34,267 nt of DNA from Burkholderiaceae bacterium (GTDB taxonomy: Bacteria > Pseudomonadota > Gammaproteobacteria > Burkholderiales > Burkholderiaceae_C), in NCBI GenBank assembly GCA_028685665.1, contig JAQUDN010000012.1:1-34267 (forward strand). Reading direction: 5' to 3'. Positions 7,431 to 8,771 of this stretch are shown here, one piece after another; within the stretch, counting starts at the first letter, position 1; every line of letters starts with the position of its first letter. The translations under genes were made by a program, and so were the position numbers. The notes below the pieces were generated by a model. That model ran no database searches. It worked only from the letters and a program-made list of their open reading frames with translations, and was not told where the DNA came from.

Positions 7431-8555
7431 TCAGTGGGCGCGGCGGTCGAGCACGGCCTGCGACAGCACGGCCAGGGACTCCAGCGAATCGTCCCAGCCC
7501 AGGCAGGCGTCGGTGATGCTCTTGCCGTATTCGAGGTCGCCCGGCAGGTCCTTGCCCGGGGTGAACTTCTGGGCCCCGGCGTGCAGATGGCTTTCGATCA
7601 TCACGCCGAAGACGCTGCGCGAGCCGCCGGCGATCTGGCCGGCGATGTCGCGCGCCACATCGAGCTGCTTTTCATGCTGCTTGCTGCTGTTGGCGTGGCT
7701 GCAATCGACCATCAGCGTCGGGGGCAGCTTGGAGGCTTCCAGGTCCTTGCAGGCGGCGGCCACGCTGGCCGCGTCGTAGTTGGGGGCCTTGCCGCCGCGC
7801 AGGATCACGTGGCAGTCCTTGTTGCCCTTGGTGTTGACGATGGCCACCTGGCCGTTCTTGTGCACCGACAGGAAATGGTGGCCCCGGCTGGCCGACTGGA
7901 TGGCATCGGTGGCGATCTTGATATTGCCGTCGGTGCCGTTCTTGAAACCGATCGGCGCCGACAGGCCGGAGGCCAGTTCGCGGTGGACCTGGCTTTCGGT
8001 GGTGCGCGCCCCAATCGCGCCCCAGCTGATCAGGTCGGCAATGTACTGGGGCGAAATCACGTCGAGGAATTCGCTGCCGGCCGGAATGCCCAGGCGGTTG
8101 ATCTCGATCAGCAGCTGGCGGGCCATGCGCAGGCCCTCGTCGATGCGGTAGCTTTCGTCGAGGTAGGGGTCGTTGATCAGGCCCTTCCAGCCCACGGTGG
8201 TGCGGGGCTTCTCGAAATACACGCGCATGACGATTTCCAGCGTGTCGGCGTACTGCTTGCGCACCTCGACCAGGCGGCGGGCGTAGTCCACGGCGGCGGC
8301 GGGGTCGTGGATCGAGCAGGGGCCAATCACCACCAGGAGGCGGTCATCCGAGCCGGCCATGATGTTGTGGATGGTCTTGCGGGTGTGGGTGATCAGCGTT
8401 TCCACCGGGGTACCGTGGATGGGGAAAAAGCGGATCAGATGTTCGGGAGGGGGAAGCACGGTGATGTCCTGGATGCGCTGGTCGTCGGTCTGGCTGGTGC
8501 GGTCGGTGGGATGGGTGTTCCAGACATCGGTGGCTGGGGCGTGGGGCTTGCTCAT
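7431..8555 (-). CDS. aroG: 3-deoxy-7-phosphoheptulonate synthase, class I (AroG/F/H type)
   Basis: 374 aa. It catalyses the condensation of PEP and erythrose-4-phosphate to DAHP, the committed step of the shikimate pathway. The family segment LVVIGPCSIHDPAAAVDYA is clear, followed by RVYFEKPRTTVGWKGLIND, the class I (AroA-alpha) PEP-binding region, and later GCSHANSSK-like VDCSHANSSK and the SVFGVMIESHL metal/E4P region. The start ATG at 8555 has GAGGA about 10 bases upstream. The upstream leader (8588-8722) carries an aromatic-rich leader peptide and a terminator, so transcription is probably attenuated by charged aromatic tRNAs, in addition to feedback inhibition typical of the family. I cannot tell from sequence which of Phe, Tyr or Trp inhibits this isozyme. 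The symbol aroG is used generically. Confidence 0.95.
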   Translation of the reverse strand: MSKPHAPATDVWNTHPTDRTSQTDDQRIQDITVLPPPEHLIRFFPIHGTPVETLITHTRKTIHNIMAGSDDRLLVVIGPCSIHDPAAAVDYARRLVEVRKQYADTLEIVMRVYFEKPRTTVGWKGLINDPYLDESYRIDEGLRMARQLLIEINRLGIPAGSEFLDVISPQYIADLISWGAIGARTTESQVHRELASGLSAPIGFKNGTDGNIKIATDAIQSASRGHHFLSVHKNGQVAIVNTKGNKDCHVILRGGKAPNYDAASVAAACKDLEASKLPPTLMVDCSHANSSKQHEKQLDVARDIAGQIAGGSRSVFGVMIESHLHAGAQKFTPGKDLPGDLEYGKSITDACLGWDDSLESLAVLSQAVLDRRAH

Positions 8556-8587: not shown

Positions 8588-8624
8588 AAAAAAAAACCGC
8601 CGGGCTCCTGGAGCTTCGGCGGTT
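8588..8624 (-). terminator. Attenuator terminator in the aroG leader
   Basis: On the minus strand ACCGCCG pairs with CGGCGGT (forward coordinates 8617-8623 / 8596-8602). An inner GCTC/GAGC extension follows, and nine uninterrupted T residues follow the stem (8596 down to 8588). It sits between the leader peptide stop (8654) and the aroG ATG (8555), and would end transcription before aroG. Its 5' arm can alternatively pair with CGGCGG at 8671-8666 in the leader codons. Confidence 0.85.
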
Positions 8625-8653
8625 GTTTGGAAAGCTGTGTGCTTGCGTGCGCT

Positions 8654-8722
8654 TCAGCCTCTCATCCGCCGGGGGACCGAGAACCAAAAGCCAAAATAAT
8701 AGAAAGCACTGTGCAAAGACAT
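8654..8722 (-). CDS. Aromatic-rich leader peptide of aroG (22 aa)
   Basis: ATG at 8722, TGA at 8656-8654. Codons 7-14 read FYYFGFWF: seven aromatic residues in eight codons, covering Phe, Tyr and Trp. The peptide ends with Val-Pro-Arg-Arg-Met-Arg-Gly. The two Arg codons CGG CGG (8671-8666) are complementary to the 5' arm of the downstream terminator. A ribosome stalled on the aromatic run would leave them just uncovered; a ribosome reaching the stop would cover them. An in-frame ATG nine codons upstream (8749) is an alternative start. No clear Shine-Dalgarno sequence precedes either. TGCTACATT just before the ATG resembles an extended -10 box, so the transcript could be leaderless. This gene is too short for standard gene calling. 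Confidence 0.8.
   Translation of the reverse strand: MSLHSAFYYFGFWFSVPRRMRG
8666..8671 (-). promoter_or_regulatory. Antiterminator arm of the aroG attenuator
   Basis: CGGCGG on the minus strand, formed by leader codons 18-19. It can pair with CCGCCG (8622-8617), the 5' arm of the terminator. After one A-A mismatch, two further pairs (UG with CA) extend the helix. The two structures are mutually exclusive. Confidence 0.7.
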
Positions 8723-8771
8723 GAGAGTCAATGTAGCACAGACTGGCATCGGGAATCCGCTGGAGAACCCG

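Follow-up and report, generated by a model that had tools for sequence, protein, structure and literature searches.

Arrangement of the aroG upstream region

The stretch of DNA analysed here, called the window below, covers 34,267 nt (contig JAQUDN010000012.1 of the Burkholderiaceae assembly GCA_028685665.1). It carries on its minus strand an aroG gene whose product matches Pfam PF00793 (E 4.4e-94) and NCBIfam aroFGH (E 1.4e-159), and which is the sole class I DAHP synthase match in this 88%-complete genome. The features found at the locus are listed in Table 1. Along the minus strand from 8722 to 8588, the leader reading frame is followed by a 29-nt spacer, the terminator hairpin and nine T (8596-8588); next comes aroG, with its own Shine-Dalgarno sequence (GAGG) before the start at 8555. 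The leader codons are ATG TCT TTG CAC AGT GCT TTC TAT TAT TTT GGC TTT TGG TTC TCG GTC CCC CGG CGG ATG AGA GGC TGA, and the coordinates, the 22-codon peptide, the FYYFGFWF run at codons 7-14 and the place of CGGCGG at codons 18-19 given in a preliminary description of the locus all match the sequence. Two elements are added here to that description, namely a protector hairpin (UUCUC/GAGAG) and a -10 element placed close to the leader ATG. A cyclase-family gene (PF04199, kynurenine formamidase family; 9974-8772, minus strand) lies directly upstream, about 50 nt away from the leader, and read-through from it into the leader is possible.

Table 1. Coordinates of aroG and of its upstream elements in the window
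Feature	Position	Strand	Remarks
aroG	7431..8555	minus	Class I 3-deoxy-7-phosphoheptulonate (DAHP) synthase, 374 aa
Leader reading frame MSLHSAFYYFGFWFSVPRRMRG	8654..8722	minus	22 codons and stop; ATG at 8722; conserved frame with aromatic-preserving substitutions
Regulatory codons 7-14, Phe-Tyr-Tyr-Phe-Gly-Phe-Trp-Phe	8681..8704	minus	Sequence and stall scan
Putative extended -10 promoter element TGCTACATT	8730..8738	minus	TACATT hexamer at 8735-8730, 7 nt to leader ATG; sequence and relatives
Protector arm 1, UUCUC, codons 14-15	8679..8683	minus	Fold, and pairing with GAGAG in relatives
Arm 2, antiterminator arm CGGCGG, codons 18-19	8666..8671	minus	Covaries with the terminator 5' arm, to which it is complementary
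GAGAG, 3' side of protector hairpin	8659..8663	minus	Highly conserved over 45 sequences
Intrinsic terminator, AACCGCCG/CGGCGGTT stem, inner GCTC/GAGC stem and nine T	8588..8624	minus	Fold and 45 sequences
Arm 3, terminator 5' arm CCGCCG	8617..8622	minus	Common to terminator and antiterminator

The terminator had earlier been described as a 7-bp GC stem with nine T. The nine T are present, while the stem has to be revised, RNAfold giving an 8-bp outer stem, AACCGCCG/CGGCGGUU, with six GC pairs, and inside it a second stem of 4 bp. The search of Rfam gave no riboswitch, T-box or known leader family at gathering score, and its sub-threshold matches were weak and on the opposite strand only.

Competing RNA pairings

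Since one RNAalifold consensus cannot hold alternative pairings, and that for alignment A1 gave the terminator only, the pairings were counted separately. Over 45 sequences, 99.4% of cells could form the terminator pairing and 92.6% the antiterminator pairing (leader GGCGG with terminator CCGCC), both well above versions shifted by 1-3 columns. Own partners allowed a longer extension of the antiterminator duplex than permuted ones did, 115 compared with 78.9 (sd 6.3), a value reached in none of 5,000 permutations; it should be noted that such permutation tests ignore relatedness, and that the independent changes are fewer than the covariation counts. The leader arm covaries with both terminator arms, and matched changes could be found across families, i.e. 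CGGCGG with CCGCCG, CCTGGCGG with CCGCCAGG, CGCTGGCGG with CCGCCAGCG, and AACTGGCGG with CCGCCAGTT. The pairing of CGGCGG at codons 18-19 with the terminator 5' arm, proposed from the single sequence, is in agreement with these changes. The comparison of orthologues proposed at the same time has likewise borne the proposal out, with aromatic codons, terminator and antiterminator arm conserved and covarying across Burkholderiales.

The protector pairing UUCUC/GAGAG could be formed in 88% of cells over the same number of sequences (45), with double changes in four of its five pairs. In the fold predicted for the window without a ribosome, this leader hairpin hides CGGCGG. In some relatives the free RNA is already predicted to prefer the antiterminator, and the arm is not sequestered in several.

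Simulated ribosome stalling

In the stall scan, the RNA made before the terminator 3' arm emerges was folded with the ribosome footprint blocked codon by codon. For the window, the antiterminator probability does not exceed 0.28 for codons 2-6, rises to 0.93 at codon 7 and 0.98-1.00 over codons 8-14, falls to 0.34 at codon 15, and is 0 for all positions from codon 16 through the stop. That is, the codons that switch the antiterminator on coincide with the aromatic run, and changing the footprint by one base in either direction alters the result only at the edges (codons 6, 7 and 15). The geometry, previously judged to fit classical attenuation, is exact in the simulation for the window and for most relatives. 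For 60 leaders, the mean antiterminator probability is 0.87-0.89 at the first and last aromatic codon and 0.50 at the stop. The distance from the last aromatic codon to the arm is at least 11 nt in the leaders compared, most commonly 12, which is about the reach of a ribosome past its A site.

In some relatives, the stop is too distant for a ribosome that terminates there to cover the arm; such leaders would have to rely on ribosome release and refolding, which are steps outside the simulation. Because the free RNA prefers the antiterminator, or the stop is too distant, in some relatives, the protector step is predicted not to be uniform among them.

Codon constraint in the leader

Could such a reading frame occur by chance? 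Frames that open with ATG and hold six or more aromatics within nine codons appeared in 39 of 20,000 Markov shuffles of the window's upstream region; among the relatives, 55 of the 60 real upstream regions had one, compared with 17 of 6,000 shuffled ones. Single-base codon differences at the aromatic codons are silent in 55%, aromatic-to-aromatic in 36% and other in 9% of cases, where 11, 11 and 79% would be expected (91% observed against 22% expected for the first two classes together), percentages that count pairs of sequences, which are non-independent. A chance frame is ruled out by the shuffles together with this constraint, and the constraint argues for a leader that is read as codons, i.e. 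translated. For the GGCGG arm, conservation is at the level of the nucleotides; its reading frame varies among the leaders (31, 26 and 2 in the three frames), and it would be translated as Arg-Arg in the window and as Gly-Gly or Ala-Ala in most relatives.

Among 59 distinct leaders, Phe is present in all 59, Tyr in 58 and Trp in 45. The mean number of codons per leader is 4.4 for Phe, 1.7 for Tyr and 0.8 for Trp. Because the Trp codon is missing in 14 of the 59, Trp sensing would not be universal. The leaders without Trp include Massilia- and Janthinobacterium-type ones (among L055-L081), for example FFTAYFYF, and Trp is kept in most Caballeronia/Burkholderia leaders (FYFYFFW). Two further leaders upstream of aroG have unusual compositions: in one (MRTTVRYHFWHFHIQHLTGAGVANA, L026) His codons are mixed into the aromatic run, and in another (L032) Phe is the sole aromatic.

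Predicted promoter and start of the leader

A search of 60 leaders for a TAnnnT hexamer whose end stands 6-9 nt upstream of the leader ATG identified an extended -10 element, typically GTGCTACATT, in 41 of them, which are of the Comamonadaceae type and include the window. With the usual distance between a -10 element and its start site, transcription should start at the leader ATG or within about 2 nt of it. A Shine-Dalgarno-like 4-mer was found in none of the 60 leaders, compared with 14 of 16 aroG starts. Because the -10 element ends so close to the ATG and no Shine-Dalgarno sequence precedes it, the leader mRNA is probably leaderless in Comamonadaceae-type leaders. The Caballeronia- and Massilia-type leaders have instead a TATAAA- or TATAGT-like box about 25-40 nt upstream.

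Leaderless mRNAs of this kind have been described, since the mRNA 5' end coincides with the ATG for trpL (rnTrpL) of S. meliloti (PMC7298713), and a leaderless leader mRNA has been reported for ilvB of C. diphtheriae (PMC5784534). In addition, a leuA leader observed in another member of the family (MNRISLALILLLPPGRSW; L125, 1100-1600 minus, G386) has a TATATT box 7 nt from its ATG, as in the aroG leader of the window, and because of this identical spacing the leaderless arrangement may be general for amino acid leaders of Burkholderiales.

Phylogenetic distribution

In an initial sample of 80 aroG relatives from named genomes, an automatic search found leader, arm and terminator in 61, as well as in the window. 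Five further loci (L003, L026, L032, L048 and L065) were positive by eye, having variant arms or a terminator missed by the pattern, and one (L016) lacks the upstream DNA. The other 13 loci comprise Polynucleobacter (L034-L036), the similar L067, the Cupriavidus copies L039 and L041, and distant or possibly paralogous genes. In Polynucleobacter and L067 the leader is lost, and another frame ends a few dozen bases before aroG. Named genera in this sample that carry the element include Caballeronia, Paraburkholderia, Trinickia, Massilia, Janthinobacterium and Rugamonas.

When the family of the window was searched with a covariance model made from 45 loci, 194 of 200 genomes, representing 141 genera, gave a match, in nearly every case a single strong one. 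The six genomes without the element have no complete aroG orthologue: G328 and G431 give no aroG match, G316, G347 and G436 contain a distant copy only, and G366, a 55%-complete assembly, gives weaker aroG matches. All of the 50 hits that were checked share the strand of aroG and stand 31-112 nt upstream of its first matched residue. At the order level, full-length matches occur in 15 families, and aroG is directly downstream in 30 of the 32 hits fetched (14 families, including the window's own). No comparable leader was found upstream of the aroG homologues of 36 class members outside the family, and in two family members that were checked the leader stands on one aroG copy only, the second copies being without leader, arms and promoter. 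Because these homologues and second copies have no leader, we take the element to belong to one orthologous aroG of Burkholderiales. The idea that a pan-aromatic leader is needed by organisms with a single DAHP synthase found no support, as many family genomes with two to four class I matches carry the leader.

Most of the second model matches per genome are short, cover only the last 35-45 model positions, and were set aside as terminator-like hairpins. A candidate queuosine-sensing leader of queA (L124, a weak second match with an NNYYYW frame) was also rejected, as it looks like the end of the upstream frame plus a terminator. Another observation concerns MVTFSVVYNVYFYWYRSSGGAKGC (L163, 2724-2921 minus, G585), a leader with aromatic codons and a GCCGCC/GGCGGC hairpin; it is not before aroG but precedes a 204-aa frame with no Pfam or NCBIfam match.

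Proposed mechanism and alternative explanations

The locus has a leader rich in codons for the pathway products, a terminator between leader and gene, an antiterminator sharing an arm with it and a protector hairpin, and in the simulation a stall at the regulatory codons alone frees the arm. With these features of a classical attenuator, aroG is very probably controlled by ribosome-mediated transcription attenuation. Transcription would begin at the leader ATG or immediately beside it, and the 5'-terminal AUG would be bound by a ribosome without the help of a Shine-Dalgarno sequence. When aromatic aminoacyl-tRNA is ample, the ribosome would pass codons 7-14 to the stop and cover or pass CGGCGG, so that CCGCCG could pair with the second CGGCGG and transcription would end at the T-run. 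When any of these aminoacyl-tRNAs is short, the ribosome would stall in codons 7-14 and the protector hairpin would open; CGGCGG, just beyond the footprint, would then pair with CCGCCG, no terminator would form, and aroG would be transcribed. The efficiency of termination and the response to each amino acid are predictions from sequence. Judging from the codons, the leader probably reads charged tRNA-Phe and tRNA-Tyr, and probably tRNA-Trp, with Tyr and Trp acting as triggers besides Phe. The fullest form of the proposal is a leaderless three-input OR gate, in which shortage of any one of the three charged tRNAs raises aroG, as the standard control of aroG in most Burkholderiales; we consider its chances to be evenly balanced.

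The same attenuator might in practice sense Phe only, or Phe and Tyr, its single Trp codon being incidental. The codon content (means of 4.4 Phe, 1.7 Tyr and 0.8 Trp, with Trp missing in 14 of 59 leaders) points in this direction, and so does aroR of C. glutamicum, which is reported to answer Phe and not Tyr despite its Tyr codon (PMC11802643). However, Phe, Tyr and Trp are found in 59, 58 and 45 of the 59 leaders, the Trp codon stands at a fully effective stall position in the simulation, and Phe and Tyr codons interchange rather than all turning to Phe, which leaves such narrower sensing a possible but rather unlikely reading.

The hairpin could also be a plain terminator, or stabilising 3' end, of the upstream cyclase-family gene, with a fortuitous small frame. 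This gene shares the strand of aroG, stops about 50 nt short of the leader, and showed no terminator of its own in the scan. However, promoter, leader and arms are conserved together, the aromatic codons are constrained, and the second aroG paralogues of the two relatives checked have none of the arrangement, so that this origin of the hairpin is extremely improbable. Hardly more probable is a leader RNA or peptide that acts mainly in trans, with attenuation secondary, as reported for rnTrpL/peTrpL of S. meliloti. A terminated and leaderless leader RNA would indeed be built like rnTrpL, which begins at the trpL ATG (PMC7298713). However, the 3' part of the peptide changes its reading frame freely, so that conservation does not extend to the complete peptide, and the element stays beside aroG.

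Under classical attenuation, the aromatic signals for one enzyme appear to be integrated by a single leader throughout an order whose members are common soil, plant-associated and clinical bacteria. In E. coli, control of entry into aromatic synthesis is split among three isozymes with separate repressors. The proposal makes a sharp prediction, namely that any of three starvations would act on one switch, and it gives a defined point of de-repression for aromatic overproduction in Burkholderiales. The leader would also be a short conserved gene of the kind that annotation easily overlooks, and its probable leaderless start a natural test of Shine-Dalgarno-free initiation coupled to attenuation.

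Comparison with known attenuators

The E. coli leaders of pheL-pheA and trpL-trpE each read one amino acid and precede branch enzymes, not the common first step. The Burkholderiales leader resembles them in its product-amino-acid codons and its protector, antiterminator and terminator hairpins, and differs in preceding the enzyme of the first step and in matching no Rfam leader family. Several end products of a shared pathway are also read by single leaders in the ilv systems (E. coli ilvGMEDA, C. glutamicum ilvBNC) and the thr leader, which contain Ile/Val/Leu or Thr/Ile codons; here the set is Phe/Tyr/Trp instead. The likeness to trpL of S. meliloti lies in the coincidence of 5' end and ATG, but the latter is a Trp attenuator before trpE(G) with reported trans activities (PMC7298713).

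A single leader reading Phe, Tyr and Trp before the first shikimate-pathway enzyme was initially regarded as less familiar, which needs qualifying, as there are precedents. One is aroR of C. glutamicum, a Phe-Tyr-Phe leader before the aroF DAHP synthase gene with reported Phe-dependent, ribosome-mediated attenuation, on which Tyr limitation had no effect (Neshat et al., 2014, as cited in PMC11802643). It differs from the present leader in being actinobacterial, in responding to Phe but not Tyr, and in that no Trp codon is mentioned for it. The absence of the leader before the aroG homologues of the 36 class members outside the family suggests an origin independent of aroR. DAHP-synthase attenuation has likewise been predicted for the Acholeplasma uORFC-13-1 motif, which precedes aroF and contains one or more Phe codons (PMC8632094), and for Vibrio aroF-tyrA (PMC1173090); both are in unrelated lineages and are not described as reading all three aromatics. 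A pan-aromatic aroG leader of Burkholderiales was not found in the full-text papers searched, which is weak evidence of absence since subscription journals are mostly outside their coverage. Because known or proposed DAHP-synthase leaders exist elsewhere, the mechanism is classical, and the novelty lies in the set of codons for three aromatics before the first enzyme of the pathway, together with its near-universal presence in the family, its wide presence in the order and its probable leaderless start.
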